Below, one piece after another: positions 30,953 through 48,105 of a stretch of 64,000 bases of DNA; positions within the stretch are counted from its first letter, which is position 1; the number at the start of each line of letters is the position of its first letter. Location: positions 186,001 to 250,000 of the forward strand of contig NZ_JAMGSI010000002.1 in NCBI RefSeq assembly GCF_023516715.1, read 5' to 3'. Under the pieces are notes generated by a model. The model worked only from the letters and a program-made list of their open reading frames with translations, made no database searches and had not been told where the DNA came from. The position numbers and the translations under genes are program-made. This stretch comes from Akkermansia massiliensis. GTDB lineage: Bacteria > Verrucomicrobiota > Verrucomicrobiia > Verrucomicrobiales > Akkermansiaceae.

Positions 30953-32878
30953 TCACGCGTCCAGTTGTACCCGGAAAATACGCATGGAGTTGCCCACCGC
31001 AAGCAGGCAGACGCCTACATCCGCCATGACGGCGGCCCACATACCGGCCAGCCCCAGAATACCCAGCACCATCACCAGCAGTTTGACGCCCAGGATGAGA
31101 ACAATGTTCTGCACGATAATGCGCTCCGTCGCCCGTGACAGAACCATTCCCTGCGGAACGGCAACGGGGTCTCCTTTCATCACCACCACGTCCGCAGCCT
31201 GGAGAGCCGTATCAGACCCTACGCCGCCCATGGCTATGCCGATGTCCGCGGCAGCCAGGGAAGGAGCGTCATTCATGCCGTCCCCCACAAAGGCGAGCAG
31301 GCCTTCTTCCGGCTTCAGCCGGCGCACGTGCTCCAGCTTGCCGGCCGGCATCAGCCCGCTGAACACCTCGTCCAGCCCCAGCTTGCGCCCCACCTCCGCA
31401 CCGGCGGAGGAGGAATCCCCCGTCAGCATCACCAGGTTGGAAACGCCCAGCCCCCTCAATTCCCGCACCGCCTGTTCCGCCCCCGGCTTGATCCGGTCAG
31501 ACAGACGCAAACGTCCCAGCGGAACGCCGTCCAGAGCCACGTAAATGGTTACGCCGCGATCCTCTTCCTCCCCTGCCTCTACTCCCGCCTCCTGGAGAAA
31601 AGCCTTTTTCCCCACCAGCACAGCCTTCCCTTCCACACGGGCGGAAACGCCGCCCCCCGTTACTTCCACCAGCTCCGCCACACGGTCCGGGAACAGGCTG
31701 CCTTCATACGCCTTTACGATGGAACGCCCCAGCGGGTGGGAGGCGGAGCTTTCCGCGTGCGCCGCCCAGTACAGCAATTCCTCCGGCGTTACTCCGTCAC
31801 GTGGAAGCACTTCATCCACGGAAAAGACGCCCTCCGTCAAGGTTCCGGTCTTGTCAAACACCACCGTCTTCACTTTCCGCAGGGCATCCAGGTAGTTGCT
31901 CCCTTTCAGCAGAATTCCCTGCCGCGCCGCCCGCCCTATCCCGGCAAAGAAGCCCAGCGGGATGGACAGCACCAGCGCACAGGGGCAGGAGATCACCAGC
32001 AGCACCAGCGCGCGGAACAGGCCGTCCGTCCAGCTTCCGCCCGTGACGAAGGGATAAAGCAGGAACACCAGAACGGCAATGGAGATCACCAGCGGCGTAT
32101 AGATGCGTGAAAACGTGGACAGCCTTCCTTCCAGGGGGGATTTATGGCCGGAAGCGGCTTCCACCAGTTCCTGGACCCTCGCCAGGGCGGAATGCCGCCA
32201 GTCCCGGTCCGTGCGCACCTCCAGCACGCCCTGTCCGTTGATGTACCCGGCCAGCACGGTGCTTCCGGCCCCGGCCTCCACCGGAAGGGATTCACCGGTC
32301 ATGGCGGAGGTATCCAGGACGGAATTCCCTTCCGTCACCGTGCCGTCCAGCGGGACACGCTCTCCGGGGCGCACTTCAATCACGGAACCGGGCCGGACCT
32401 CCGCGGGAGGAACGTCACGGACAGTGCCGCCCTCTCTCACATGGACGGATTCAGGCCTCAGGTTCATCAGTTCGCTCACGGACCGGCGGGAACTGCCCAC
32501 CGCGCGCTCCTGGAGATATTCTCCCACGCGGTAGAAAAGCATCACCCCGACGGCTTCGGAATAATCCCCCAGGAACATCGCTCCCAGGGAGGCAATGCTC
32601 ATCAGGAAATTTTCATCCATGGCACGCCCGTGCCTCAACCCCAGAAAAGCCGCCTTCAATACATCCCAGCCTATCAGCAGGTAGGCCGCCGCATATGCAG
32701 CCATGCCGCTCCAGGAATCGCTTCCCATCACCAGGGCGGCGACAAACAGAGCGATGCCCAGCACGGCGGGAACGGGCCTGATGGCGTCTCCGGAGCCGCA
32801 GCAGCTTCCTGAACAGCACCCTCCGGCGCAGCAGGAAGCTCCTTGTGAAAAATGTTCGTGGGGATGTTCCGTACTCAT
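30953..32878 (-). CDS. Heavy-metal P1B-type ATPase, Zn/Cd-like
   Basis: A 641-residue metal exporter. Instead of an HMA domain the N-terminus has a short His/Cys-rich segment (HPHEHF and SCCAGGCCSGSCCGSGD), probably a metal-sensing or docking tail. Core motifs: actuator TAMTGESLPVE, the membrane CPC motif in SCPCALVLSIP, phosphorylation Asp in DKTGTLT (about 343), nucleotide-site SSASHPLG, and hinge GDGMNDAP. The last membrane segment has MADVGVCLLAVGNSMR, whose Asp matches the Zn/Cd/Pb (ZntA/CadA) group, not Cu pumps. A perfect GTTAG-N6-CTAAC operator lies 48 bases upstream of the start. Regulation with the Fe/Mn-type repressor suggests that Fe(II), Mn, Zn or Co should be considered as substrates. 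Confidence 0.95.
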   Translation of the reverse strand: MSTEHPHEHFSQGASCCAGGCCSGSCCGSGDAIRPVPAVLGIALFVAALVMGSDSWSGMAAYAAAYLLIGWDVLKAAFLGLRHGRAMDENFLMSIASLGAMFLGDYSEAVGVMLFYRVGEYLQERAVGSSRRSVSELMNLRPESVHVREGGTVRDVPPAEVRPGSVIEVRPGERVPLDGTVTEGNSVLDTSAMTGESLPVEAGAGSTVLAGYINGQGVLEVRTDRDWRHSALARVQELVEAASGHKSPLEGRLSTFSRIYTPLVISIAVLVFLLYPFVTGGSWTDGLFRALVLLVISCPCALVLSIPLGFFAGIGRAARQGILLKGSNYLDALRKVKTVVFDKTGTLTEGVFSVDEVLPRDGVTPEELLYWAAHAESSASHPLGRSIVKAYEGSLFPDRVAELVEVTGGGVSARVEGKAVLVGKKAFLQEAGVEAGEEEDRGVTIYVALDGVPLGRLRLSDRIKPGAEQAVRELRGLGVSNLVMLTGDSSSAGAEVGRKLGLDEVFSGLMPAGKLEHVRRLKPEEGLLAFVGDGMNDAPSLAAADIGIAMGGVGSDTALQAADVVVMKGDPVAVPQGMVLSRATERIIVQNIVLILGVKLLVMVLGILGLAGMWAAVMADVGVCLLAVGNSMRIFRVQLDA

Positions 32879-32925
32879 GACCTGTTCCGCTTGTACGCCT
32901 GCGTCTACGCTATGGCAAGCCCTAT

Positions 32926-32941
32926 GTTAGTTCAATCTAAC
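32926..32941. promoter_or_regulatory. DtxR-type operator, perfect (site A)
   Basis: GTTAG-TTCAAT-CTAAC, a perfect 5-bp inverted repeat spaced by 6. It overlaps the ROK-kinase stop codon and lies 48 bases upstream of the P-type ATPase start on the minus strand. It matches the consensus repeated at the feo, porin, second ATPase and repressor promoters. Confidence 0.75.
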
Positions 32942-37072: not shown

Positions 37073-37094
37073 GCCAGAGGAAAGCATTTTTTCC

Positions 37095-37129
37095 AGCCGC
37101 GCCATGAACCTTCATGGCGCGGCTTTTTT
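37095..37129 (+). terminator. Rho-independent terminator of the peroxidase gene
   Basis: A perfect 14-bp stem AGCCGCGCCATGAA / TTCATGGCGCGGCT with a 2-base apex, followed by further T residues, lies 22 bases after the stop codon. It insulates the feo operon. Confidence 0.92.
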
Positions 37130-37191
37130 GTATTCCCCCTTCCGGCTTATTTCCGGAAAACCCCCGTTTCCGGCTTTTCCTCCGCGTCATA

Positions 37192-37207
37192 CTTAGATTA
37201 GACTAAT
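37192..37207. promoter_or_regulatory. DtxR-type operator upstream of feoA (site B)
   Basis: CTTAG-ATTAGA-CTAAT matches NTTAG-N6-CTAAN; only the outermost pair is mismatched. A smaller perfect palindrome ATTAG-A-CTAAT is nested inside. It lies 118 bases upstream of the chosen feoA start. Confidence 0.65.
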
Positions 37208-37279
37208 GGGTAAATGATTCATGATGAATAATTTTTATCCAAATTGAAAACACAGGCGCATAATATCATTGACTTACTA

Positions 37280-37295
37280 GTTTGATGAAACTAAC
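37280..37295. promoter_or_regulatory. DtxR-type operator, degenerate, next to feoA (site I)
   Basis: GTTTG-ATGAAA-CTAAC has one perfect half-site and one variant half-site. The GTTTG variant is the reverse complement of the CAAAC half-site seen at 46315-46319, so the degeneracy recurs. It is 30 bases upstream of the feoA start, where a bound repressor would block RNA polymerase. Confidence 0.55.
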
Positions 37296-37325
37296 TTTCT
37301 CCCGGATTTGATTCATACACACACC

Positions 37326-37538
37326 ATGCCACTCTCCATGCTCAACATCGGCGATATTCGCCAGGTTAACAAAATTCATGGCAGGGATGAAACCCGGCGT
37401 TTTCTGGAAAGCCTGGGCTTCGTTGCCGGCAGCACGGTTTCCATCGTTTCTGAAAACGGCGGAAACTTCATCGTCAATGTCAAGGGGTCCCGGATAGCTC
37501 TCAGCAAGGCTCTTGCGTGCAAGATATTCGTGGCCTGA
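37326..37538 (+). CDS. feoA: FeoA-domain protein, first copy
   Basis: A 70-residue SH3-like FeoA protein, which binds or modulates FeoB during ferrous iron uptake. The pattern is MLNIGDIRQVNKIHG, then RRFLESLGFVAGSTVSIVSE, NFIVNVKGSRIALSKALACKIFV, matching FeoA. The ORF extends six codons upstream (37308), but the Met at 37326 better fits the family start (PLSMLNIGD). Two operator-like palindromes precede it. A second FeoA gene starts 31 bases later; such pairs are known in Bacteroidota, Clostridia and Verrucomicrobia. Confidence 0.9.
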   Translation: MPLSMLNIGDIRQVNKIHGRDETRRFLESLGFVAGSTVSIVSENGGNFIVNVKGSRIALSKALACKIFVA

Positions 37539-37569
37539 ACCTTCTCATCCAACAATCAGCCATCATTCT

Positions 37570-37800
37570 ATGACCAAACACCGTACATTAAGAGACGCCC
37601 TGATCGGGGAAACCGTGACCGTCGGGAAACTGGCGGGGGAAGGCCCGGTCAGAAGGCGCATCATGGACATGGGAGTCACCAAGGGAACGCAGATTTTCAT
37701 CCGCAAAGTCGCCCCCTTGGGAGATCCCATTGAAGTTACTGTCCGCGGCTACGAACTCTCCATCCGCAAATCGGAAGCCGAGAACATCCATATCCATTGA
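37570..37800 (+). CDS. feoA: FeoA-domain protein, second copy
   Basis: A 76-residue SH3-like protein: LRDALIGETVTVGKLAGEG, VRRRIMDMGVTKGTQIFIRK, LGDPIEVTVRGYELSIRKSEAENI. The MGVTKGT and GDPIEVxxRGYxLSIRxxEA phrasing is the classical FeoA type, closer to the canonical family than the first copy. The frame is open 19 codons upstream into the first copy's end, but the Met at 37570 is the natural start. It probably works together with the first FeoA and with FeoB 76 bases downstream. Confidence 0.92.
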   Translation: MTKHRTLRDALIGETVTVGKLAGEGPVRRRIMDMGVTKGTQIFIRKVAPLGDPIEVTVRGYELSIRKSEAENIHIH

Positions 37801-37876
37801 TTCCGCCCTTATTACCGCACGTTTCCTGACCTGACAGCAAGACGGCGCACCCATACATCAAGACAAGGAAACATCC

Positions 37877-40138
37877 ATGAGCAACATTACCATCGCCCTG
37901 GCGGGCAATCCCAACTGCGGAAAAACCACTCTCTTCAACGCCCTGACAGGCGCCAGCCAGTACGTCGGGAACTGGCCCGGCGTTACTGTGGAAAAAAAGG
38001 AAGGCCGCCTGAAAGGCCACAAGAACATCATCATTGAAGACCTTCCGGGCATTTATTCTCTTTCCCCCTACACCCTGGAGGAAGTCGTCAGCCGGAATTA
38101 CCTGGTCACGGACCATCCCTCCCTCATCCTGAACCTGGTTGACGGCAGCAACCTGGAACGCAATCTTTACCTCACCACCCAGCTTTGCGAGCTGGGCGTT
38201 CCCGTCATCATCGCCCTGAACATGATGGACATTGTCCGGAAGCGCGGCGACCGCATTGACACGGAAAAGCTTTCCCGGGATCTCGGCTGCCAGGTGCTGG
38301 AAATCAGCGCCCTGAAAGGGACCGGAATCCGTGAACTGGTGGACGCCGTCGTAAAAACGGCCACCTCGGAGGATGCCCGGGCCCCGCGCGCCGTGCACTT
38401 CCCGGACCGTCTGGAAAAAGCCATCGGGGAAATAGGGGAAATAATCACCGGCAAATGCCTGGACCAGCAGAAAAAATGGTTTGCCGTCAAGGTTTTTGAA
38501 AGGGACCAGAAAGTCGCGGACCAGCTCGCGCTCACCTCTGAGGAGCAGTCCCGCATCAACGGGATCATTGAAGCCATGGAACAGGAGATGGATGACGACA
38601 GCGAATCCATCATCACCAACGAGCGCTACAATTCCATTTCACGCATTACCGCGGATTCCGTCGTCAAGGCCGGCATCGGCAGCCTGACGGGCAGCGACAG
38701 GATCGACCGCATCATCACCAACCGCTGGCTGGGCCTCCCCATCTTTGCCGTCGTCATGTGGGCGGTGTATTACATTTCCATCCAGACGGTGGGCGCATGG
38801 GGAACGGACTGGGCCAATGACACCTTCTTCGGGGAATGGGTTCCGGAATGGGTGGGCGGCCTGCTGGAAAGCGCCAACTGCGCCCCGTGGCTGGAAAGCC
38901 TGATTCAGGACGGCGTGATTGCCGGCGTGGGGGCCGTCCTAGGCTTCCTGCCGCAGATGGCGGTGCTGTTCCTGTGCCTGGGTATTCTGGAAGATTGCGG
39001 CTACATGGCCCGCGTGGCCTTCATCATGGACCGCATTTTCCGCAAATTCGGCCTTTCCGGGAAGTCCTTCATCCCCATGCTCGTTTCCATGGGCTGCGGC
39101 GTTCCGGGCATCATGGCCACCCGCACCATTGAGAATGAAAAGGACAGGCGCATGACCATCATGACCACCACGTTCATTCCATGCGGAGCTAAAACGCCCA
39201 TCATCGCCCTGATTGCAGGCGCCTTCTTCCCGGAAAATTCCTGGGTGGCCCCGGGAGCCTACTTCATCGGGGTGGGCGCCATCATCCTTTCCGGCCTCAT
39301 TCTGAAAAAGACCGCCATGTTCTCCGGGGATCCCACCCCCTTCGTCATGGAACTTCCCATTTACCACGTTCCCGCCTGGAAGAACGTCATCATCCACGCG
39401 TGGGAACGCTGCAAGGCCTTCGTGCAAAAAGCCGGGACGGTTATCTTCGTTTCCAGCGCCCTGATCTGGTTCCTTTCCAGCTACAACTGGAAGGTTGATT
39501 CCGTGGAGCAGAATGACAGCATGCTGGCTTCCATCGGCAACGTGGCCGCACCCGTCTTCCAGCCGCTGGGCTGGGGCGAATGGAAACCTACCATGGCCAC
39601 CATCACCGGACTGATTGCCAAGGAAAACGTGGTCGGCACCTTCGGCGTCCTGTATGCGGACGGCAGTTCCGGGGAAGAGGCGGAGGAAGAACCCGCCGAA
39701 ACGCAGGAAATGTCCCCCGCCGGCCAGGAGCTCCAGGCATCCCTGGAGGGCGCCTCTGAAGAAGCTGCCGCCGAGGAAGCCGCCGCTGAAGAGGAGGAAG
39801 ATGAAGACGCTGAAATCAGGGAAACCGGGGACCGCCTGGTCCAGGCGGGAGCCTTCACGTTCCTGAGCGCCTTCTCCTTCATGATTTTCAACCTTCTCTG
39901 CGCCCCCTGCTTTGCCGCCATGGGAGCCATCAGAAGGGAAATGAACAGCGCCAAATGGACTTTCTTCGCCATCGGCTACATGTGCGCCCTGGCGTACTGC
40001 CTGGCCTTCCTGATTTACCAGATGGGAGCATGGCTTTATGCGGAAGCTTCCTTCGGCATCGGGCAGGGGCTCGCCGTATTGCTCCTGCTGGGCCTCATTT
40101 ACCTGGTGGTGAAGAAACCCTCCGCATCCTCCAAATAA
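37877..40138 (+). CDS. feoB: Ferrous iron transporter FeoB
   Basis: A 753-residue inner-membrane Fe(II) importer. The N-terminal G domain has G1 GNPNCGKTTLFN, the switch-I region VGNWPGVTVEKKEG, G3 DLPGIYSL and G4 NMMD. A helical GDI domain follows (about 165-270). The membrane part contains two Gate repeats (GVGAVLGFLPQMAVLFLCLG, GYMARVAFIMDR, SFIPMLVSMGCGVPGIMATR). Between the second half's ENVVGTFGVLY and the following GAFTFLSAFSFM lies an insertion at about residues 595-648 made almost only of Glu, Ala, Asp and Ser, which is absent from E. coli FeoB. The GTPase is cytoplasmic and energises or gates uptake. It is part of the feoA-feoA-feoB-Cys-rich operon. Confidence 0.97.
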   Translation: MSNITIALAGNPNCGKTTLFNALTGASQYVGNWPGVTVEKKEGRLKGHKNIIIEDLPGIYSLSPYTLEEVVSRNYLVTDHPSLILNLVDGSNLERNLYLTTQLCELGVPVIIALNMMDIVRKRGDRIDTEKLSRDLGCQVLEISALKGTGIRELVDAVVKTATSEDARAPRAVHFPDRLEKAIGEIGEIITGKCLDQQKKWFAVKVFERDQKVADQLALTSEEQSRINGIIEAMEQEMDDDSESIITNERYNSISRITADSVVKAGIGSLTGSDRIDRIITNRWLGLPIFAVVMWAVYYISIQTVGAWGTDWANDTFFGEWVPEWVGGLLESANCAPWLESLIQDGVIAGVGAVLGFLPQMAVLFLCLGILEDCGYMARVAFIMDRIFRKFGLSGKSFIPMLVSMGCGVPGIMATRTIENEKDRRMTIMTTTFIPCGAKTPIIALIAGAFFPENSWVAPGAYFIGVGAIILSGLILKKTAMFSGDPTPFVMELPIYHVPAWKNVIIHAWERCKAFVQKAGTVIFVSSALIWFLSSYNWKVDSVEQNDSMLASIGNVAAPVFQPLGWGEWKPTMATITGLIAKENVVGTFGVLYADGSSGEEAEEEPAETQEMSPAGQELQASLEGASEEAAAEEAAAEEEEDEDAEIRETGDRLVQAGAFTFLSAFSFMIFNLLCAPCFAAMGAIRREMNSAKWTFFAIGYMCALAYCLAFLIYQMGAWLYAEASFGIGQGLAVLLLLGLIYLVVKKPSASSK

Positions 40139-40170
40139 CCCTCATACCCACTCCTAACCCCCTCACCAAC

Positions 40171-40338
40171 ATGGGAACATATATCATTGCCACCCTCCTT
40201 TTCCTGGCCCTGGCCTACGCGCTGTATAAAACGTTCAGCAAGCGCGGCAAGTGCTGCGGCAACTGTGACGGGTGCGGCAGCGGCGGCGGTTGCTGCGGAG
40301 GCCACCATCACGACGACGATCAAGAAAAACAGGACTGA
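40171..40338 (+). CDS. FeoB-associated Cys-rich small membrane protein
   Basis: A 55-residue protein, 32 bases after feoB. It has one membrane helix (TYIIATLLFLALAYALYKTF), a short basic joint, and a cytoplasmic tail CCGNCDGCGSGGGCCGG followed by HHHDDD. This is the layout of FeoB-associated Cys-rich proteins, which replace FeoC in many anaerobes. Six Cys and three His could bind Fe(II) or an iron-sulphur cluster and sense or pass metal to FeoB. The reading frame is open farther upstream inside feoB, but the Met at 40171 starts the membrane helix. Confidence 0.9.
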   Translation: MGTYIIATLLFLALAYALYKTFSKRGKCCGNCDGCGSGGGCCGGHHHDDDQEKQD

Positions 40339-40361
40339 GCCCAGTCTCAGCCCTTTCTTTC

Positions 40362-40400
40362 AGAACCTGCAGACCGCCCGCGGTTTGCAGGTTCTTTCCT
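40362..40400 (+). terminator. Terminator of the feo operon
   Basis: A stem AGAACCTGCAGACCG / CGGTTTGCAGGTTCT (15 bp with one G-T pair, 4-base loop) followed by TTCCTT lies 23 bases after the Cys-rich gene. It sits in the convergent gap with the next minus-strand gene. Confidence 0.8.
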
Positions 40401-40427
40401 TCTGCGCATGCCGCATGCGCTCCCTCC

Positions 40428-40835
40428 TTAACCGATCCAGCCGTGCTGGTACGCCGCCATGGCCGCAATCACCAGCGCGATAAACAGGAAGATGAACCAC
40501 ATCACATTGTGGCGGTGGCGGTACTCCACGGCCATCAGGGGCTCCCATTCCTTTTCCACAAAGGAGAAGTCGTCACCGCTGGCAAAACGGTCGTACAGCG
40601 TTTCCAGCTCCTGCCCCGTCACCCCTTCCGGAGCGGCGAATACCGGCGGGCAGCATGAGCCCGTCTTGAACACGATTTCACAGTGGTAGATGCCGTCCGC
40701 TTCCTTGTAGGACTGGAGGCACGCGCCGTCACGGGCGCATACCACATGGCCAGTCGTTCCCTCCTGCAAGCGGCGCAGAGCAGTATCACGGTCGGTCACT
40801 TCATCATTTGAAATTTCCCATTGAACCTTACTCAT
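40428..40835 (-). CDS. Tail-anchored membrane protein of unknown function
   Basis: A 135-residue protein. No signal peptide is present; residues of about 112-130 form one C-terminal membrane helix (NVMWFIFLFIALVIAAMAAY). The cytoplasmic part has five Cys residues (VVCARDGAC, YHCEI, GSCCPPVF) and an acidic C-terminal region (DRFASGDDFSFVEKEWEPL). The Cys content and position between two metal-regulated loci suggest a metal-related role, but I know no family. Its upstream region (40836-41066) is shared with a divergent small lipoprotein gene and holds two back-to-back degenerate operator sites. Confidence 0.7.
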   Translation of the reverse strand: MSKVQWEISNDEVTDRDTALRRLQEGTTGHVVCARDGACLQSYKEADGIYHCEIVFKTGSCCPPVFAAPEGVTGQELETLYDRFASGDDFSFVEKEWEPLMAVEYRHRHNVMWFIFLFIALVIAAMAAYQHGWIG

Positions 40836-40961
40836 TCTGTCAGTTTAAGACAGTTCCCATCCAAGTCAACATGGTTTTAAATGTTTCCTGACGCCGGAAA
40901 TGTCATCAATTGTCATAAATCCGGCAGCGTGCAAGGCGCTGACCTTAACGTTCTTCTTCGT

Positions 40962-40998
40962 GTTTAATTCACCTAACTTGTTGTTAGTCAAACCAAAG
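40962..40998. promoter_or_regulatory. Two adjacent degenerate DtxR-type sites (site H)
   Basis: GTTTA-ATTCAC-CTAAC (40962-40977) and GTTAG-TCAAAC-CAAAG (40983-40998) lie back to back, separated by 5 bases. Together their inner half-sites form CTAAC-TTGTT-GTTAG, an everted repeat. Each has one perfect half-site. The element sits between the divergent genes at 40835 and 41067 and could regulate either. A further half-site pair, CTAAT-CTAAC, lies at 41024-41033. Confidence 0.5.
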
Positions 40999-41066
40999 AA
41001 CTTTCAACAGATGGGAAGAAGTGCTAATCTAACCATCAGCGGCTACAACCAGCCGCACAACATAAG

Positions 41067-41276
41067 ATGATGAACAAGTACACATGTATCATGATAGGAG
41101 CCGCCTGCCTGCTGGCAGCCTCCTGTCAGGCGGATACGGCCCGCAGGGAACCGGTGCGGAATACGGCGCCGGCCTCCTCCGTACAGGCCTCTTCCGCAGC
41201 GCCCCAGTCCGGACAACGGAATGACGGGGTTCAGGAACACAGGCGTTTCAAGCGCCTCTCGCTTCCTTTGAGATAA
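41067..41276 (+). CDS. Small putative lipoprotein in the metal regulon region
   Basis: A 69-residue protein: type II signal peptide ending LLAAS-Cys (Cys about residue 20), then a Ser/Ala/Gln-rich, probably disordered segment and a basic C-terminus (RRFKRLSLPLR). Degenerate operator sites lie 70-100 bases upstream. Function unknown. Such tiny lipoproteins are common in outer membranes. The coding call rests on the good lipobox and on its promoter context. Confidence 0.6.
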   Translation: MMNKYTCIMIGAACLLAASCQADTARREPVRNTAPASSVQASSAAPQSGQRNDGVQEHRRFKRLSLPLR

Positions 41277-41283
41277 AGAATAA

Positions 41284-41324
41284 GCAACGCCGCACCCCCT
41301 ACCTGATCGAGAATGCGACGTTGC
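41284..41324 (-). terminator. Possible terminator of the porin gene
   Basis: GCAACGCCGCA and TGCGACGTTGC form an 11-bp stem with one mismatch. On the minus strand it is followed by a T-rich stretch (TTATTCTTTA). It lies about 120 bases after the porin stop codon, so the assignment is tentative. Confidence 0.4.
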
Positions 41325-41442
41325 CGCCAGGTCATGCAGACCCCTTCAATGCCCTTGCACGCAGGATTCCGCTCTCTGCATGCAGACGGACAAGGAAGAC
41401 TTGATTATTATTGCGCTTCCACAGATTCGGGACATTTCCCGC

Positions 41443-42762
41443 CTAGAACGTGACGACGCATTGTACGGAGAAGATATTGGCGGAGTTGACGTCATCCCGC
41501 CCGGAAGGATTCTTCACATACTGGTAGGAAGGCTGGATGAGGCAGTACGGCGTAATGGAGAAGCTGTACGTGCATTCCAGAATCATTTCCCGGTCATGCC
41601 CGGGCCGCGTTTCCGCCAGCGTGTCGGCATCCGGCTTGCTCACGGAGAAGCCTACGCCAAAGAAGTTGCCGTCCGCTTCTTTCAAGCCGGTCATGACTTC
41701 CAGAGGTTTCTTGAAAATGACCCCGGCGGACGCCTGGGCTTCCGCTCCGCAGATGTTGCCTGATTCGGCGCTGCTCCAGCCGGCGCGGGCGAACAGGGCG
41801 AACGGGCTGCTGCCCAGGTCCTGTTCCAGGTTGAACGCCACGCCTCCATGGTTCTTGCCGTCCGCATGGAACATGAACGGCTGCAGGCGGTACGTGCCCG
41901 TGCCGATGCCGAAGGCCTTTTCATGCGTCCAGCCGATTTCACCAAGCAGGTTGAAGGATTTTCCGGTCGTGTGGTGGAACGGGTTGCGGCGGGGTTCATT
42001 GTCCATCATGTTGCCGCCCACCTGGATGAACCAGTTTTCATTGAACTGGTACTGCCCCACGACCCCGAAGTTGGAGTCCCCCAGCGGAAGCACCTGGTTG
42101 TTGACGAAGGGAGCGCCGCCGAACTGTCCGAAGGTGGTGTTGGCATACGTATTGGCGTCAAAATAGTTCGTCTGGTTGATCATGCCGCCCATGATGACGA
42201 GCTGGCCGTCCATGAAACCCTGGGAAAGGAGGAGTTCCGGCAGGTAGAAGTAGCCGTCTTCAAAAACGTCGCAGTTGGCGGGGCCGCTCGCGCCCCAGGA
42301 GTCGTCCAGCGTGGTGCGGTGCGTATGCTTGTTCAGGGCCACGGAGCCGGAGAGCTCGCTCTTGATCCAGGTTCCCTGGTTGCGGCTGGATTTGAACAGC
42401 TGCAGCCCGGCCTGGGCGTGGAATTTGTACCAGCTCTGGCTGGAACCGGCAGTCTCTTCGTTCGCGGCCGCATGGTGGCCCTTGGTATAGAGGAACGCCT
42501 GCTCCACCAGGAACTGGAAGCCGGCTTTCTCGTAAGCGCCTTTATGCAGATCCGTCAGGGCCCTGGTCAGAAGATCGTTCGGAATGGGCGTGCTTTCATC
42601 GCCGTATTCGTCCCCGAACAGGTCGATGTCGTCCAGAATGGAACCTTTGCCTTCAGCCTCTTCCGCAGCCAGAGCGGCGACGGTAGTGGCTACGGATGCC
42701 GTACCGGCCATGCAGAAGCCGGAGCAGGCCAGCAGGGCGGGTATCATGTAGCGTTTCTTCAT
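41443..42762 (-). CDS. OprB-type outer-membrane porin
   Basis: A 439-residue porin. Signal peptide: MKKRYMIPALLACSGFCMAG then a second Ala-rich part ending ALAAEE. The rest alternates aromatic and glycine in amphipathic strands, with loops such as YFDANTYANTTFGQF, FVNNQVLPLGDSNFGVVGQY and FNENWFIQVGGNM. The C-terminal block CLIQPSYQYVKNPSGRDDVN and final aromatic VTF fit the carbohydrate-selective porin family (OprB, PF04966). The relatives pass sugars, but this copy is placed in a metal regulon: a perfect operator at 43022-43037 precedes its small upstream partner. It could thus admit chelated metal or siderophore-like sugars. The start is the Met at 42762. Confidence 0.88.
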   Translation of the reverse strand: MKKRYMIPALLACSGFCMAGTASVATTVAALAAEEAEGKGSILDDIDLFGDEYGDESTPIPNDLLTRALTDLHKGAYEKAGFQFLVEQAFLYTKGHHAAANEETAGSSQSWYKFHAQAGLQLFKSSRNQGTWIKSELSGSVALNKHTHRTTLDDSWGASGPANCDVFEDGYFYLPELLLSQGFMDGQLVIMGGMINQTNYFDANTYANTTFGQFGGAPFVNNQVLPLGDSNFGVVGQYQFNENWFIQVGGNMMDNEPRRNPFHHTTGKSFNLLGEIGWTHEKAFGIGTGTYRLQPFMFHADGKNHGGVAFNLEQDLGSSPFALFARAGWSSAESGNICGAEAQASAGVIFKKPLEVMTGLKEADGNFFGVGFSVSKPDADTLAETRPGHDREMILECTYSFSITPYCLIQPSYQYVKNPSGRDDVNSANIFSVQCVVTF

Positions 42763-42804
42763 AGTAATGCTGTATCTTGAGTCTTCCTCGTCAATCGCGG
42801 ATGT

Positions 42805-43008
42805 TCAGCCTTCCATGGCGAAGGAGCATTCCTGCTCCCGGCCTGCGGCGGACTGCGCATCCACGGCTTTGCCGCATGCGCCCATACAGAACTCACAGTC
42901 CCCGCAGAGCAGGCGGTATCTGGGACGCCGGACGAGAAGCCCGGCCAGTTTCCGGTACCGGCAAATCCGGCGGAAGAAACGGTGAAGTCCTGTATGGGTC
43001 AAGTTCAT
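42805..43008 (-). CDS. Cys-rich small protein upstream of the porin
   Basis: A 67-residue protein. It starts MNLTHTGLHRFFRRICRYRK (strongly basic), then LLVRRPRYRLLCGDCEFCMGAC, with a C-x2-C-x2-C-x3-C cluster, and an acidic tail with one more Cys. The cluster could bind Fe, Zn or a small iron-sulphur cluster. It lies 42 bases upstream of the porin on the same strand and 13 bases downstream of a perfect DtxR-type operator, so it is probably the first gene of that operon. An upstream TTG start at 43020 is possible but the ATG is preferred. No family is recognised. Confidence 0.6.
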   Translation of the reverse strand: MNLTHTGLHRFFRRICRYRKLAGLLVRRPRYRLLCGDCEFCMGACGKAVDAQSAAGREQECSFAMEG

Positions 43009-43021
43009 GCAACGCGGCAAA

Positions 43022-43037
43022 GTTAGATAGAACTAAC
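43022..43037. promoter_or_regulatory. DtxR-type operator, perfect (site C)
   Basis: GTTAG-ATAGAA-CTAAC, a perfect 5-bp inverted repeat spaced by 6, ending 13 bases upstream of the Cys-rich small gene that leads to the porin. On the other side it is 130 bases from site D, so a looped divergent control region is possible. Confidence 0.75.
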
Positions 43038-43148
43038 TATTGAGTCAACACTTTTTCTCCCTTAGCCCTTTTCCAATTTGGAACTCCTTCCATGAAGCAC
43101 GTTTCATACCTCTTTTATGATCAATGTATTGAAAAATCTTTAAAATAA

Positions 43149-43165
43149 TTTTACGTACCGTAAAA
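43149..43165. promoter_or_regulatory. Second palindrome, TTTTACG-TAC-CGTAAAA
   Basis: A perfect 7-bp inverted repeat with a 3-base spacer lies 2 bases before site D, upstream of the DUF6110-like gene. Its sequence is unrelated to the RTTAG-N6-CTAAY motif, so it may bind a different regulator or overlap the promoter. Confidence 0.45.
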
Positions 43166-43167
43166 AA

Positions 43168-43183
43168 ATTAGTTGGAACTAAT
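43168..43183. promoter_or_regulatory. DtxR-type operator, perfect (site D)
   Basis: ATTAG-TTGGAA-CTAAT, a perfect inverted repeat spaced by 6, 125 bases upstream of the DUF6110-like gene and its ATPase. Confidence 0.72.
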
Positions 43184-43308
43184 TCAACTTGACCTGAAAC
43201 CTGCGGAACGTTACAAAAAAGCAGGCCTATTGGAGATCATCCAACCCTTCCGGGAAAGAAACGGCTGCATGCCGCCAAGGCCGGCTGAACCCAACAAAAA
43301 ACATTACC

Positions 43309-43539
43309 ATGAGTTACATCAACAACAAGGGCCTCTGGGGCTTCGTCGGCGGAGTCATCGCCGCCGCCATCGGCACGAAAGTGGTTAAAAGCCCCGCTAC
43401 CAGGAAATTGGCCGTCCAGGGGCTTTCCAAAGCCATGCTCATCCAGCAGAAGGCCATGGAGCAACTGGCCAATATCCGTGAAGAAGCGCAGGACTTGTGC
43501 CACGAGGCCGCCGCTGAAAACCGCAAGCCGGAACAGTAA
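43309..43539 (+). CDS. DUF6110-like small membrane protein
   Basis: A 76-residue protein. Residues of about 8-27 (LWGFVGGVIAAAIGTKVVKS) form a glycine-rich, GxxxG-type membrane-inserting helix, followed by SPATRKLAVQGLSKAML and a long helix with alternating charges (AMEQLANIREEAQDLCHEA). This matches the general form of DUF6110 proteins found beside P-type ATPases. The ATPase gene follows 124 bases later, with a DtxR-type operator upstream. By analogy with gene pairs reported for ferrosome formation (a small membrane protein plus a P1B-6-type ATPase) it may assist a metal-loading pump at a membrane compartment. That is an inference. Confidence 0.78.
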   Translation: MSYINNKGLWGFVGGVIAAAIGTKVVKSPATRKLAVQGLSKAMLIQQKAMEQLANIREEAQDLCHEAAAENRKPEQ

Positions 43540-43663
43540 CAATCTCATTGTTCATCATCATACTGGGGCAGTCCGTTTCCTTCTCCGCCGGCGGAACGGG
43601 CAGCCTCCAACGGGGGAAACGCACGGAGAAGGGCGTTTCCCCCTTTTTCATTTTTCCAAACCG

Positions 43664-45760
43664 ATGCACTATCAGGTTATCCACCATACGCCCGGCAGGC
43701 TCCGGGTGCGCTGCGGCCGCGGCATGTTCAACCATGACCAGGCCTGCGGCATTGAATGCAGGCTCCTGAAGCTGAAAGGGGTCAGCTCCGTCAAGGCCAC
43801 TCCCTGCAACGGGGGGGTGTTCATCCTGTACGAAGGGGCGAATCCCCAGACCATTTTCCGCGTGCTGGACAGGCTCAGGCCGGAAACGCTCCGCAGCCAT
43901 GAACCGGAAGAACGAGCGGAAGCCAGGAAACTGGGCCAATCCTTTTCCCTTAAGATAGCCGGGAAAGTTTCTTCCTTCCTGCTCTGCAAATTATTCCTGC
44001 CGCCCCCTCTCAGAATGGCCAAGGCTTTCTGGAACTACGGCTCCTATTTCCGGCGCGGAATGGCAGGCCTGGGCAGCGGCAGGCTCAATGTGGCGGTTCT
44101 GGACGCCGTATCCATCGGTGTCTCCATCGGCACCAGGGCCTACGGAACGGCCAATTCCATCATGTTCCTTCTTTCCATTTCAGACCTGCTGGAAAATTAC
44201 ACGCGGAAGAAGACCCGGGCGGCGCTTGCGGCCAGCCTGAGCATCAACGTGGACCAGGTCTGGAGGGTGGAAAAGGACGGCATGCGCCAGGTTCCCATGG
44301 AACAAATCCGGCCCGGGGACAAGATCCGAGTGGACGCCGGCAACGTCATCCCCGTGGACGGCGCCGTCCTGTCCGGGGAGGCGGAAGTGAACCAGGCCGC
44401 CATGACGGGAGAATCGGAAGCGGCAGCCAAGCAGGAAGGCTCCGTCGTCTTCGCCGGGACCACGCTGGAAACAGGCTCCCTCGTCATCCGGGTGGACGCC
44501 ATGGGCGACCAGTCCCGCATCAACAACATCATCGCCCTGATTGACCATTCGGAGGAATTGAAGGCCCGCATCCAGAGCCGGGCGGAAAAACTCGCGGATT
44601 CCATCGTTCCCCTCACCCTGCTCACGGCGGGTGCGCTGTTCCTGTTCACCCGGAACATCTCCAAGGCGCTCTCCGTGCTGATGGTGGATTATTCCTGCGC
44701 CATCAAGCTCGCCACGCCCATTTCCGTCATCTCCGCCATGAAGGAAGCTTCCGCGCGCAAGATCATGATCAAGGGCGGAAAATTCATGGAGCTGTTCGCC
44801 AGGGCGGACACCATCGTTTTTGACAAGACGGGCACGCTGACCTCCGCCTGCCCCCAGGTGACGCAGATTGTCCCCCTGAGCGACTGCAGCCGGGAATACA
44901 TCCTGAAAACGGCCGCCTGCCTGGAAGAGCACTTCCCCCACAGCGTGGCGCGGGCCGTCGTGCGCAAGGCGCTGGAGGAAGGCCTGCACCATGAGGAAGA
45001 GCACGCGGAGGTGGAATACATCGTGGCCCACGGCATCTCCTCCCGCCTGCATGGGAAGAAGGTCCTCGTGGGCAGCTACCACTTCCTTTTTGAAGATGAA
45101 GGCATCCCCCTCACGGAAGAACAGCGGCAGACTATCCGCAGCCACGCCAGGGGCAAATCCAACATCTTCCTGGCCATAGGCCGCAGGGCGATCGGCATGA
45201 TCGGCGTCAGCGATCCTCCCAGGCCGGAAGCCAGGGAAACGATCGCCCGGCTGAAGCGGCAGGGCATTTCCTCCATCATCATGCTCACCGGAGACAGCGA
45301 GTCCGCCGCCCGCGCCATCAGCCGCCAGCTGGGCATCACGGAATACCGCTCCCAGGTTCTGCCGGAGGACAAGGCGCGCTTCATCCAGCAGTTGAAGCAG
45401 TCCGGAAGAACGGTGTGCATGGTGGGTGACGGCATCAACGATTCCCCCGCCCTTTCCTGCGCGGACGTCTCCGTCTCCATGAAGGATTCCTCCGACATCG
45501 CCCGTGAAGTAGCGGACATTTCCCTGCTGTCCAGCTCCCTGAGTGAACTGGCGGTTTTAAGGGAACTAAGCTGCGCCGTCCTTGAAAAAATAGAGCGCAA
45601 CTACCGCTTCATCGTCGGGTTCAACACCTCCCTGATTCTGCTGGGCATGTTCGGGCTGATTACCCCGGCCCTTTCCGCATTCCTCCACAATGCCTCCACG
45701 GTGTACGTCAGCGCGCGCAGCACGCGCCGCTGCCTGCCCCCGGTCGGCACTCCGCAGTAA
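43664..45760 (+). CDS. P1B-type ATPase with SCAIK motif (P1B-6-like)
   Basis: A 698-residue metal pump. Residues of about 1-75 form an HMA-like domain without the usual CxxC, carrying the phrase HHTPGRLRVRCG. The core has the actuator TGE in AAMTGESEAAAKQ, a changed channel motif Ser344-Cys-Ala-Ile-Lys (DYSCAIKLATP, where most heavy-metal pumps have CPC), phosphorylation Asp387 in DKTGTLT, HSVARAVV in the nucleotide domain, and GDGINDSP at about 588. Replacement of CPC by SCxxK marks a separate branch whose members, as I recall, include the ferrosome ATPase FezB. The start at 43664 gives the HMA-like domain; an upstream 62-codon extension that overlaps the previous gene is rejected. The gene is convergent with the repressor gene. 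Confidence 0.93.
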   Translation: MHYQVIHHTPGRLRVRCGRGMFNHDQACGIECRLLKLKGVSSVKATPCNGGVFILYEGANPQTIFRVLDRLRPETLRSHEPEERAEARKLGQSFSLKIAGKVSSFLLCKLFLPPPLRMAKAFWNYGSYFRRGMAGLGSGRLNVAVLDAVSIGVSIGTRAYGTANSIMFLLSISDLLENYTRKKTRAALAASLSINVDQVWRVEKDGMRQVPMEQIRPGDKIRVDAGNVIPVDGAVLSGEAEVNQAAMTGESEAAAKQEGSVVFAGTTLETGSLVIRVDAMGDQSRINNIIALIDHSEELKARIQSRAEKLADSIVPLTLLTAGALFLFTRNISKALSVLMVDYSCAIKLATPISVISAMKEASARKIMIKGGKFMELFARADTIVFDKTGTLTSACPQVTQIVPLSDCSREYILKTAACLEEHFPHSVARAVVRKALEEGLHHEEEHAEVEYIVAHGISSRLHGKKVLVGSYHFLFEDEGIPLTEEQRQTIRSHARGKSNIFLAIGRRAIGMIGVSDPPRPEARETIARLKRQGISSIIMLTGDSESAARAISRQLGITEYRSQVLPEDKARFIQQLKQSGRTVCMVGDGINDSPALSCADVSVSMKDSSDIAREVADISLLSSSLSELAVLRELSCAVLEKIERNYRFIVGFNTSLILLGMFGLITPALSAFLHNASTVYVSARSTRRCLPPVGTPQ

Positions 45761-45764
45761 AAGG

Positions 45765-45800
45765 AAAGGGATGGTTCATGTGGAAATGAACCATCCCTTT
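45765..45800. terminator. Hairpin between the ATPase and the repressor
   Basis: A perfect 15-bp stem AAAGGGATGGTTCAT / ATGAACCATCCCTTT with a 6-base loop in the 60-base convergent gap. The minus-strand side is followed by CCTTTT, so it probably ends the repressor transcript; it may serve both directions. Confidence 0.82.
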
Positions 45801-45820
45801 GAAAAACGTCCTGGGCCTTC

Positions 45821-46228
45821 CTATTCTCCGCTCTTCCGGCAATGCTCCGTCAGGAGCTGGAACCGGGAAATTTCCTCCAGCGTCATGATGTGTTCAATGC
45901 CGCAGGCCACTTCGTCCGCGCGCTTCTCCTCCATCTTCAGCACCGTGATCAGGAATTCTTTCACCATGGTATGGCAGGAAATAACCCGGTCCGCGTAATA
46001 ACGGCCCTCCCGGGTCAGCACAATGGGGGAATACTGCGTATATTCAACCAGGCCGCGTTCCTTCAACTGCTTCATGGCCAGGGAGACGGAAGGCTTTTTC
46101 ACGTTCAGCGCCTCCGCGATCTCTCCTACGGCGGCGCACCCTTTTTCCAGCTCGATGTTGCGGACGGCCTCAATGTAATCCTCCAGGCTGTTGCTCAGCT
46201 CCAGGGAGGGAAAGTTTTTGCGTATCAT
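45821..46228 (-). CDS. DtxR/MntR-family metal-dependent repressor
   Basis: A 135-residue winged-helix repressor. Residues of about 8-70 are the DNA-binding domain, with recognition helix KKPSVSLAMKQLKERGL. The dimerisation domain holds candidate metal ligands: Asp17 and Glu20 (LEDYIEAV), His86, Cys109, Glu112 and His113 (CGIEHIM). Asp17 matches the MntR Asp8 position, while Cys109 matches the DtxR Cys102 position, so the site is a blend and the cognate metal, Fe(II) or Mn(II), cannot be called. It lacks the C-terminal SH3/FeoA-like domain of DtxR/IdeR and resembles MntR in length. An operator 12 bases upstream of its start suggests autoregulation; the same motif marks the feo, ATPase and porin promoters. 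Confidence 0.93.
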   Translation of the reverse strand: MIRKNFPSLELSNSLEDYIEAVRNIELEKGCAAVGEIAEALNVKKPSVSLAMKQLKERGLVEYTQYSPIVLTREGRYYADRVISCHTMVKEFLITVLKMEEKRADEVACGIEHIMTLEEISRFQLLTEHCRKSGE

Positions 46229-46239
46229 GACTGATGCTT

Positions 46240-46255
46240 ATTAGGTTTAACTAAC
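46240..46255. promoter_or_regulatory. DtxR-type operator at the repressor promoter (site E)
   Basis: ATTAG-GTTTAA-CTAAC, inverted repeat with 4 perfect inner pairs, spaced by 6; 11 bases lie between it and the repressor start codon on the minus strand, so binding would block initiation or the promoter. Confidence 0.72.
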
Positions 46256-46303
46256 AAAAACAATAACCCAAGCTCCGGTCAAGTCAACCTCTTCTTGAAA
46301 AAT

Positions 46304-46319
46304 ATTAGGTGAGACAAAC
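46304..46319. promoter_or_regulatory. DtxR-type operator, degenerate (site F)
   Basis: ATTAG-GTGAGA-CAAAC. One perfect half-site and the recurring CAAAC variant, between sites E and G in the repressor upstream region. Confidence 0.5.
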
Positions 46320-46337
46320 TTTTTTCTTGCAAGGCAA

Positions 46338-46353
46338 GTTAGATCTCACTAAC
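46338..46353. promoter_or_regulatory. DtxR-type operator, perfect (site G)
   Basis: GTTAG-ATCTCA-CTAAC, a perfect inverted repeat spaced by 6. It is 8 bases upstream of an ATG on the plus strand (candidate Cys-rich ORF, 46362) and 110 bases upstream of the repressor on the other strand. Confidence 0.72.
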
Positions 46354-46361
46354 TTTCATTC

Positions 46362-46583
46362 ATGGTCAGCCCAAACCCGGAAAGAAACAACGGAAGAAAA
46401 TGCTCCGGCGGCGTTCCCGCCAGAACGGAGTCCTTCTTCTCCAGGTTCTTTTCCGCCTCGCGCCCCTGCTGCTGCCGGGGCTGCGCCCTGAAATGCTCCG
46501 GGAAAAATTGTCCCTCCGACAACAAGGGAAAACAGGCGCGGCCAAACTCCTTGGGGAACGCGTCCACAAACTGTATGGACTAG
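46362..46583 (+). CDS. Candidate Cys-rich small protein (uncertain)
   Basis: A 73-codon open frame that starts 8 bases after operator site G. It has Cys-rich phrasing near the middle (RPCCCRGCALKCSGKNC) and no signal peptide or helix. Two other small genes in this metal region are also Cys-rich and near operators, which is why it is listed. Against it: no ribosome-binding site, and other frames of equal length overlap. It could instead be random GC-rich DNA or a remnant. Confidence 0.28.
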   Translation: MVSPNPERNNGRKCSGGVPARTESFFSRFFSASRPCCCRGCALKCSGKNCPSDNKGKQARPNSLGNASTNCMD

Positions 46584-46662
46584 TCATCCGGTGCTCTAAC
46601 ACATTATCGCCTAAACACGGGCGCGTTCCCCTTCCCTTTTTTCCTTCCTCTGCGGGACGCGG

Positions 46663-47484
46663 TCAGCGGAGAACCACCGCCGGACCGTCATACCCTTCAG
46701 GCGTATAGCTGCGGATGGAGACGCCCCCCTCCGCCGTCACGTCCGCCGCCCAGCACTCGGCATGGTGGAAGCAGGCGCCCAGATTGACGTACAGCCGCCC
46801 TCCCCTTTTCCCGGTCACCGCACGGCGGTGCAGATGGCCGAAGATGACGACTTCCGCTTCCGGGAAAAAGCGTTCCGTGAATTTCCGCATGCGCCGCATC
46901 ATCGTCAGCCATGCCAGAAGAATCTGCGCGGGCCGCTCCGGCGGCCAGGCGGAATGCGCCAGAAAACGCACCAGCTTGTTCCGGCACGCCCCGGAACGCG
47001 TGTAAATGGGGGGAACCAGCACGCTCATGGCGCGCGCCAGTTCCAGCCGCCGCCGCAAATCCGTATCCGCCTCCGGGAACGCGGCAATCAGCTCACGGGA
47101 GGCCTGCTTGTTTTTCAAATATTCCCATCCCCACGGGGCCACCTCCTTGAACAGGGCATGACCGTGCAGGGCGCAGACGCGTCCCCCCTGCAATTTCAGC
47201 AGTCCGGCCTTCTCATCCGGGTCATGGTTGCCGGCCAGCAGCACGGGCTGCACTCCGGCATCCCGGCACATTTGCAGGAAACGGGCGCGTTTTTCCAGCC
47301 CTTCCGCCTGGCAGGGGCTTTCACGGGTTTCACTGAGGTCCCCGCACACCACCAGATGAGTGCACCCCTCCAGCAGGAAAGCCAGCTCCTCCGGCTCCCG
47401 GGCCAGCGCCTTGGCATGGCCGAAGTGGACGTCTGAAATGAACCGGGCACGTTCTCCCGGAGCAAGGTCAAGTTCCTGAATCAT
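46663..47484 (-). CDS. Calcineurin-like metallophosphoesterase
   Basis: A 273-residue phosphoesterase. The dimetal motifs appear in order: FISDVHFGH (Asp and His), CGDLSET (Asp), LAGNHDPDE (Asn-His-Asp), ALHGHAL (His), and FGHLHRRAV (two His). A helical insertion lies between the last two blocks (about 115-200). The substrate is not predictable; relatives act on phosphoproteins, nucleotides, UDP-diacylglucosamine or DNA. No signal peptide is present, so it is cytoplasmic. The neighbouring SpoU methyltransferase gene ends 33 bases upstream on the same strand. Confidence 0.88.
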   Translation of the reverse strand: MIQELDLAPGERARFISDVHFGHAKALAREPEELAFLLEGCTHLVVCGDLSETRESPCQAEGLEKRARFLQMCRDAGVQPVLLAGNHDPDEKAGLLKLQGGRVCALHGHALFKEVAPWGWEYLKNKQASRELIAAFPEADTDLRRRLELARAMSVLVPPIYTRSGACRNKLVRFLAHSAWPPERPAQILLAWLTMMRRMRKFTERFFPEAEVVIFGHLHRRAVTGKRGGRLYVNLGACFHHAECWAADVTAEGGVSIRSYTPEGYDGPAVVLR

Positions 47485-47517
47485 AAGGACGGAGGGAGGA
47501 GGAAAACAACCATGGAA

Positions 47518-48105
47518 TCAGGAGCGCAGCCGCTGCCGCACCATCTCATACAGGCACACGCCCGTAGCTACGGACACGTTCAGGCACGGAACGCTCCCCT
47601 TCATGGGAATCCTGATCAGGAAGTCGCAATTCTCTTCCGTCAGCCGCCTCATTCCTTCCCCTTCCGCGCCCATCACCAGCGCGGCCGGCCCCGTGAAATC
47701 CGTTTCATACAGGTCGCGGTCCCCCTTGTCCGAGGTGCCGAATATCCAGATGCCGCGGCCCTGGAGCTGCTTCATGGTGCGCGCCAGGTTGGTCACCTGG
47801 ATGAAAGGCACCTTTTCCGCCGCCCCCACGGAGACGCGCAGCACGGTCTCCGTAATGCCCACGGACTTGTCACGCGGAGCGATTACGGCATCCACGCCCG
47901 CGCCGTCCGCCGTCCGCAGAATGGCTCCCAGGTTGTGGGGGTCCTGCACGCAGTCCAGAATCAGCAGCAGGGGGTTGGGGGACTTGTCCAGAATCCCGTC
48001 CAGCACATCCTCTCCCAGCGCCTTCACGGCAATTTTGGCCGGAGCGCTGCGCACATGCTTGTTCCGGCGCGCCTCCTGTTCGTTCCCTTGGGGTCTCATG
48101 CCCAT
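47518..48105 (-). CDS. SpoU/TrmH-family RNA 2'-O-methyltransferase (RlmB-like)
   Basis: A 195-residue SPOUT methyltransferase that transfers methyl from SAM to ribose 2'-OH of RNA. Motif 1 is [17 protein letters not shown], motif 2 [12 protein letters not shown], motif 3 [22 protein letters not shown], which form the trefoil knot. It lacks most of the L30e-like N-terminal substrate domain: only about 45 residues precede the catalytic domain ([13 protein letters not shown]), whereas E. coli RlmB has about 105 more. The target may be 23S rRNA G2251 or another RNA. The start at 48105 is followed by a second Met at 48099. Confidence 0.9.

Follow-up and report, generated by a model that had tools for sequence, protein, structure and literature searches.

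The 64,000-nucleotide stretch of Akkermansia massiliensis DNA analyzed here (the window; contig NZ_JAMGSI010000002.1, in a genome of 3.28 Mb) carries two adjacent forward-strand genes that resemble fezA and fezB, the gene pair required for ferrosomes in Clostridioides difficile. The upstream gene encodes a small membrane protein and the downstream gene a P1B-6-type ATPase, and the following features were located in the pair (window coordinates throughout).

43309..43539, plus strand: fezA-like gene (76 amino acids; single GxxxG membrane helix; C-terminal EEAQDLCHEA)
43612..43648, plus strand: hairpin and T-run between the fezA-like and fezB-like genes, overlapping a terminator-like site in the automated scan
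43664..45760, plus strand: fezB-like gene (P1B-6 ATPase; 698 amino acids counted from the ATG)
43673..43855, plus strand: HMA_2-like N-terminal domain (residues 4–64, with HTPGRLRVR at 8–16; score below the cut-off)
44693..44707, plus strand: SCAIK, metal-site motif of the fourth transmembrane helix (TM4; residues 344–348)
44822..44842, plus strand: DKTGTLT phosphorylation motif (residues 387–393)
45686..45691, plus strand: HN motif in the last membrane helix of the ATPase (residues 675–676)

The original prediction, made from the DNA sequence alone, had described the upstream product as a 76-residue protein with a glycine-rich membrane helix, and the open reading frame at 43309–43539 bore this out, with GFVGGVIAAAIG and a GxxxG motif lying in the hydrophobic stretch. 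In Pfam, the protein matched DUF6110 (PF19605) with an E value of 4.5e-4 and 20.7 bits, under the curated cut-off of 26; DUF1490 was absent from its Pfam matches up to an E value of 1, and no related solved structure was found up to E 1. Of 16 genomes that have a related pair, 12 gave a DUF6110 match, which was over the cut-off in 6. The cysteine of the C-terminal DLC motif was present in 53 of the 75 upstream small genes found in the best 80 scanned loci (see below) and was absent from Clostridioides FezA.

The reading frame of the ATPase was open back to 43478; counted from the ATG at 43664, the SCAIK motif begins at residue 344, and the position that the original prediction had given for it in place of CPC, residues 344–348, was exact. 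The N-terminus, which had been called divergent and HMA-like, matched HMA_2 (PF19991) with 23.2 bits, below the Pfam cut-off of 30, and the N-terminus of Clostridioides FezB likewise scored under it (26.9 bits). P-type ATPase domains were matched in the 698-residue protein by Pfam, and the general ATPase models TIGR01525, TIGR01512, and TIGR01494 were the sole NCBIfam models over the cut-off among the 25 listed of 32. The window ATPase had both marks of the P1B-6 type, namely SC[AGV][ILM][KR] replacing CPC in TM4 and HN in the last helix. HN is given as a P1B6 mark in PMC9374683, and by itself it was not exclusive to P1B-6, being present too in a paralogue of the same genome (L004). The residues Asp342, Ser344, Cys345, Lys348, His675, and Asn676 were invariant in the chosen alignment of 32 P1B-6 sequences. 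The TM4 pattern [YF][SC]C[AGV][LIM][KRN] was found in 107 of the 116 ATPases collected and SCAIK itself in 72, counts that arose partly by construction because the contig scan used that very stretch as its pattern; sequences found through whole-protein likeness are independent of it. The idea that SCAIK is odd was thus rejected, since 72 of 107 P1B-6 sequences have it and the others have near forms, with the same reservation as to construction; it is a frequent variant in this branch.

An ATPase search at 1e-130 was positive in 62 of 393 genomes of one order, and six of these were taken as Clostridioides from their gene order and their 76–110 CW_binding_2 matches per genome, which we assume to be a trait of that genus. 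The ATPase was 699 amino acids long in both Clostridioides-type loci listed (two of the six genomes), a 131-amino-acid DUF6110 protein (79.8 bits) lay upstream of the Clostridioides-type ATPase at locus L131, and a homologous small gene was present in all six genomes. The window ATPase was 42% identical and 65% similar to Clostridioides FezB over 696 columns with one gap, the N-terminus being covered, and the small protein was 24% identical to FezA over 75 residues without a gap. A direct single-sequence search with the small protein found FezA at 5.1e-5, and a profile of window-type small genes, built from 84 entries offered including duplicates and zero Clostridioides-type rows, detected it at 1.8e-14, scaled to 100,000 sequences. 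The profile match to FezA or DUF6110 that the original prediction had proposed as a check thus spoke for its reading: homology to FezA, itself a DUF6110 protein, was found, with the limit that the direct DUF6110 score stayed under the cut-off. The order fezA-like then fezB-like is common to the window and the Clostridioides pair, with the FezA homologue directly upstream of the ATPase. A gene named fezX has been reported together with fezAB in C. difficile.

In C. difficile, fezAB corresponds to CD630_05910-05920 (PMC11651100), which a PMC6311696 table of genes altered by iron or fur, excerpted without its column headings, gives as an ATPase and a hypothetical protein, with positive values; ferrosomes require both FezA and FezB, and Fur represses both (PMC12574912). 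The two systems share two adjacent genes, a DUF6110-type small membrane protein followed by an HMA_2-P1B-6 ATPase, as well as the SCA[IL]K and HN motifs in the ATPases and a metal-responsive regulator, which is Fur in C. difficile (PMC12574912). The window locus differs in that its ATPase belongs to a neighboring clade, its small protein has 76 rather than 131 amino acids, and it has a DtxR-type operator, Feo genes close by, and a hairpin-bearing gap between the two genes.

For the phylogeny, 14 duplicates, fragments, and odd rows were removed from the 116 collected ATPases, an Arcobacter sequence was restored at full length, and two sequences were added, giving 105; these were thinned at 80% identity to 75 for a quick tree, and 44 were chosen for a careful tree. 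Proteobacterial sequences (Azospirillum, Vibrio, Arcobacter plasmid loci) served as stand-ins for Rhodopseudomonas and Desulfovibrio FezB. The window ATPase fell inside the P1B-6 clade in the 44-row tree (support 100/99) and also in the 75-row quick tree, in agreement with the type first assigned to it, and in the best tree its own clade (96/97; 92, not starred, in the quick tree) stood beside the Clostridioides-type FezB clade (100/99) and not within it. A long Deinococcus row joined FezB weakly (80/35), long branches were flagged, and the nearest non-Akkermansia rows to the window ATPase were from Bacillota (44-row tree). The ATPases of CPC type encoded in the same genome lay outside P1B-6 in both trees, as did a Rhodococcus DUF1490 ATPase. 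The Azospirillum, Vibrio, and Arcobacter ATPases, each encoded in a cluster of several small genes, split off first within P1B-6. A clade of FezB and the proteobacterial fez-like ATPases that excludes the window group was rejected (p 0.001), and forcing the Akkermansia rows into the FezB clade was marginally disfavored (AU p 0.06, not rejected at 0.05). The window ATPase is bracketed by ferrosome ATPases provided that the proteobacterial rows are genuine FezB, which is likely judging by the fez gene count of Rhodopseudomonas palustris, where RPA2333-2338 comprise six fez genes (PMC12016538).

The proteobacterial multi-gene fez clusters resemble the window locus in having a P1B-6 ATPase with SCALK and HN, small glycine-rich membrane proteins, and HMA2-type proteins, and differ from it in having several further small genes by the ATPase, where the window has two genes, and in an ATPase identity of 32–40%. 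The window locus is not such a cluster: one small gene lies upstream of the ATPase, and the regulator gene dtxR lies downstream on the opposite strand. In the mycobacterial PacL-Ctp (DUF1490) efflux platforms, too, the gene for a small membrane protein immediately precedes that for a P1B ATPase, and DUF1490 has been reported as related to DUF6110 (PMC9374683, PMC13043812). These platforms differ in having CPC or SPC in the rows compared, in occurring in Actinobacteria with a metal-resistance role, and in ATPases that lie outside the P1B-6 clade; with SCAIK and no DUF1490 match in its small protein, the window pair is not of this CPC type.

A contig scan with the TM4 stretch (residues 312–379, eight rows) gave at least 597 matching stretches, 589 of them confirmed, and the best 80 were kept, ranked by likeness to the window and not as a survey; they came from Bacillota (43), Fibrobacterota (22), Methanobacteriota (9), Verrucomicrobiota (2), Pseudomonadota (2), and Synergistota (1), with one unplaced. 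A homologue of the small gene lay upstream of the ATPase in 75 of these 80 loci, and in three of the remaining five fewer than 900 bases preceded the matched stretch; the small gene and the ATPase therefore form a stable module. When the 78 loci other than the two Akkermansia ones were searched with the FeoA, FeoB, and DtxR proteins of the window, a Feo or DtxR gene was found beside the pair in 19 (Feo in 16, DtxR in 15, both in 12), and the reversed queries gave zero matches. The other 59 loci, some on short contigs, had neither in the stretch searched. Since the 19 loci comprise 10 from Fibrobacterota and 9 from Bacillota, independent associations are fewer than these counts.

Within Akkermansia, the ATPase was found at 1e-120 in nine of 76 genomes, the window's own included (seven of 55 among those of good quality). 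Three near relatives carried an ATPase 93–98% identical to that of the window (98% in G046, of the same genus) with feoB, a porin gene, and dtxR alongside, one of the porins being different (27% identity). Five carriers were more diverged; the ATPases of three of these (L178–L180) start after the HMA_2 part, with the small gene kept, and FeoB and DtxR were not found in the 20 kb read around the pair in the other two. In genome G052, a deletion remnant (L028 10500-11000) consisted of a small-gene stump fused to a fragment from the ATPase N-terminus. Its flanks carried feoB and dtxR at the corresponding positions, with the operators kept, and it is a natural knock-out. The presence of the pair in the genus is patchy, and gain, loss, or both are all compatible with this pattern. 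A genus-wide presence of the pair was rejected on the count of nine in 76 genomes, with three of the nine lacking the HMA_2 part. Lone DUF6110-like small genes with no adjacent P1B-6 ATPase were observed in genomes G050 and G033 (L031 4095-4301, L032 11495-11662). Ferritin-family matches occurred in all 19 genomes searched, whether the pair was present or absent, and replacement of ferritin by FezAB was rejected for this reason.

The gap between the two genes was 124 nucleotides (43540–43663), compared with a median of 14.5 nucleotides in 76 small-gene/ATPase pairs, and it folded into two hairpins with a T-run after the second. Intergenic folding z-scores were −3.4 for the window, −2.4 and −4.8 for near relatives, and −6.4 and −4.0 for the diverged carrier G027 and for G040, respectively. 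Strong hairpins of unlike sequence thus occupied this gap in three Akkermansia lineages (window 43540-43663; L026 9590-9659; L027 11841-11916), and long gaps in some other genera also folded strongly. Terminator-like sites in the scan were not in excess (7 found, 5.0 expected). We infer that partial termination at the hairpin may yield more of the small protein than of the ATPase.

The pair lies among genes of a putative iron-type regulon, whose features in the window are listed below.

30953..32878, minus strand: Zn/Cd-type P1B ATPase gene (TIGR01512), with an operator at 32925-32942, about 49 bp before its start
37191..37208, unstranded: operator upstream of feoA
37308..37538, plus strand: feoA, first copy
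37513..37800, plus strand: feoA, second copy (open reading frame as listed; the true start is probably inside)
37877..40138, plus strand: feoB, ferrous iron uptake
41443..42762, minus strand: OprB-type porin gene, same regulon
43021..43038, unstranded: operator within the likely promoter of the porin gene, TTGACT-17-TAACTT (minus strand)
43167..43184, unstranded: DtxR-type operator preceding the fezA-like gene, AATTAGTTGGAACTAATT, 4 nucleotides before the likely −35 box
43189..43217, plus strand: likely fezA promoter TTGACC-17-TACAAA, inferred by eye and absent from the list of the automated scan
45765..45800, minus strand: terminator-like hairpin separating the ATPase gene from dtxR, with the T-run on the minus strand at the end of dtxR
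45821..46228, minus strand: DtxR/MntR-type regulator gene (dtxR; 135 amino acids)
46239..46256, unstranded: operator immediately following the likely −10 box of dtxR
46337..46354, unstranded: second operator upstream of dtxR

The pattern TTAGN6CTAA, which we take to be the spacing of DtxR sites, was found at six places in the window, all within 13.4 kb, whereas 0.22 would be expected from shuffles. The DtxR-type operator that the original prediction had placed at the pair is the site at 43167–43184. Both sites upstream of the small gene were kept in all four near relatives compared (the remnant included), with constant arms and varying centers, and the likely fezA promoter was kept in the three intact near relatives compared (−10 box TACAAA or TAAAAA) and not in the remnant of G052. 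Promoters here were recognized by eye and by conservation. For feoA, the porin gene, and a flavodoxin-like gene outside the window, a site or near-site covered the −10 region of promoters of the TTGACT or TTGCCT type, and for dtxR an operator followed the −10 box; both arrangements suit repression. So does that in G040, where the single operator lay 29 nucleotides before the small gene, after the TTGACA-17-TATCTT promoter of the pair. The Zn/Cd-type pump may share the regulon, given the operator before its start. Ten further operator sites lay outside the window: one before the flavodoxin-like gene (itself below NCBIfam cut-offs), one before a CopA-like ATPase, one beside a second DtxR-like gene (L175 2675-3034, contig C3; 50% identical over 120 residues), and seven with no clear link. 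Rfam families were absent from 36000–48000 at gathering scores. Ferrous iron may cross the outer membrane through the OprB-type porin of this regulon.

The regulator was a short MntR-like DtxR protein, whose best solved relatives were MntR proteins and whose NCBIfam MntR matches fell under the cut-offs. It has a cysteine in ACGIEH where MntR has a glutamate (VEGIEH), and keeps the EDYIE stretch of MntR. The cysteine at that position is presumably the DtxR-like state.

In its sequence-testable features the locus is fezAB-like, save that the ATPase stands beside the FezB clade, that a Pfam cut-off was missed, and that control may be by repression or by activation. The homology of the two proteins with Clostridioides FezA and FezB, the gene order, the operators, the regulon, and the recurrent neighborhood together suggest that the pair is probably an iron-loading, ferrosome-type fezAB locus homologous to the known pair. 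Several points weigh against this reading. The literature searched reports no tested member of the clade of the window ATPase, and the small protein misses the DUF6110 cut-off (20.7 against 26 bits). No such ATPase was found at 1e-120 in 67 of the 76 Akkermansia genomes, and the genome of the window has three ferritin-family matches, so that iron can be stored without the pair. TTAGN6CTAA occurred 16 times genome-wide compared with 34 occurrences of the reversed pattern; because this whole-genome count is not in excess, the operator signal consists of clustering and positions. The diverged carrier G027 had no operator within 420 nucleotides of the small gene. Unlike the feoA, porin, and flavodoxin-like sites, the fezA operator of the window lies upstream of the likely −35 box, which leaves iron repression at this promoter uncertain. 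As a separate observation that also counts on this side, the genome of Flavonifractor sp. An10 carries both window-type and Clostridioides-type pairs (L100, L143), which may mean that the two have different jobs.

The same upstream operator would suit activation by a metal-loaded regulator, as expected under the main rival explanation, in which a PacL-like small scaffold gathers the P1B-6 ATPase into a plasma-membrane efflux platform that exports ferrous iron or another divalent metal when FeoAB brings in an excess. DUF6110 proteins have been linked to P1B6 ATPases and PacL (PMC9374683) and called PacL-like (PMC13043812), and the small-gene profile weakly found the DUF1490 partner of Rhodococcus (17.8 bits, E 0.012). 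We consider this explanation rather unlikely: the DUF1490-paired ATPases have CPC (Rhodococcus) or SPC (Mycobacterium), not SCAIK, and lie outside the P1B-6 clade, the operator of G040 after the −10 box of the pair suits metal repression and not induction, and ferrosomes in C. difficile require FezAB, a pair of the same two-gene kind (PMC12574912). The MntR likeness of the regulator, with its retained EDYIE stretch, would instead fit handling of manganese, zinc, or cobalt under an MntR, as would the operator at the Zn/Cd-type ATPase gene and the description of P1B6 as poorly characterized in PMC9374683. The chance of this is small, as the regulator has the cysteine of ACGIEH, in what we take to be the DtxR-like state, where MntR has glutamate, operators front feoA and the flavodoxin-like gene, and Feo genes recur by the pair in other phyla. 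The Bacillota affinity of the nearest rows outside Akkermansia, the nine carriers in 76 genomes, and the fused remnant that is all G052 retains might also reflect a Bacillota-type module, once acquired, that is decaying in Akkermansia with little present function, but the three near-relative carriers keep both frames, the operators, and the intergenic hairpin, with ATPase identities of 93–98%, which makes decay very improbable.

On the ferrosome-type reading, the locus likely works as a ferrosome system, for which substrate, metal ligands, transport direction, organelle, and release are predicted as follows. The P1B-6 ATPase would pump ferrous iron out of the cytosol into a membrane-bounded space, the metal probably being bound by the cysteine of SCAIK and by HN in the last helix, and the small GxxxG protein would be needed for forming or coating that space. 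Iron imported via the neighboring FeoAB would be stored in the compartment and released in famine, and the DtxR-type regulator, with its sites at feoA, the porin gene, and the flavodoxin-like gene, would set the timing.

Ferrosomes have been reported in few species in the literature searched, and a review of gut metals calls for further research on whether other pathogens or commensals have them (PMC12574912). No link between ferrosomes and Akkermansia was found in that literature; the original ferrosome papers, which lay outside the search, may list such homologues. We tentatively suggest that pairs of the window type could be a second branch of ferrosome builders in gut and rumen anaerobes, ranging from Akkermansia, Fibrobacter, and Ruminococcus to methanogenic archaea. 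Genes for FeoAB and a DtxR-type regulator would often be their neighbors, and in Akkermansia the intergenic hairpin would raise the output of the small protein above that of the ATPase. If so, iron organelles would be a common commensal trait and not a speciality of pathogens. From its sequence, the Akkermansia strain is a good candidate for building iron-storing compartments, and the ferrosome question becomes testable in a mucus commensal whose locus has two genes, whose regulon is small, and some of whose relatives have lost the pair or do not have it. If granules form, the hoarding of iron by commensals that live in mucus or in inflamed niches would become a measurable trait.

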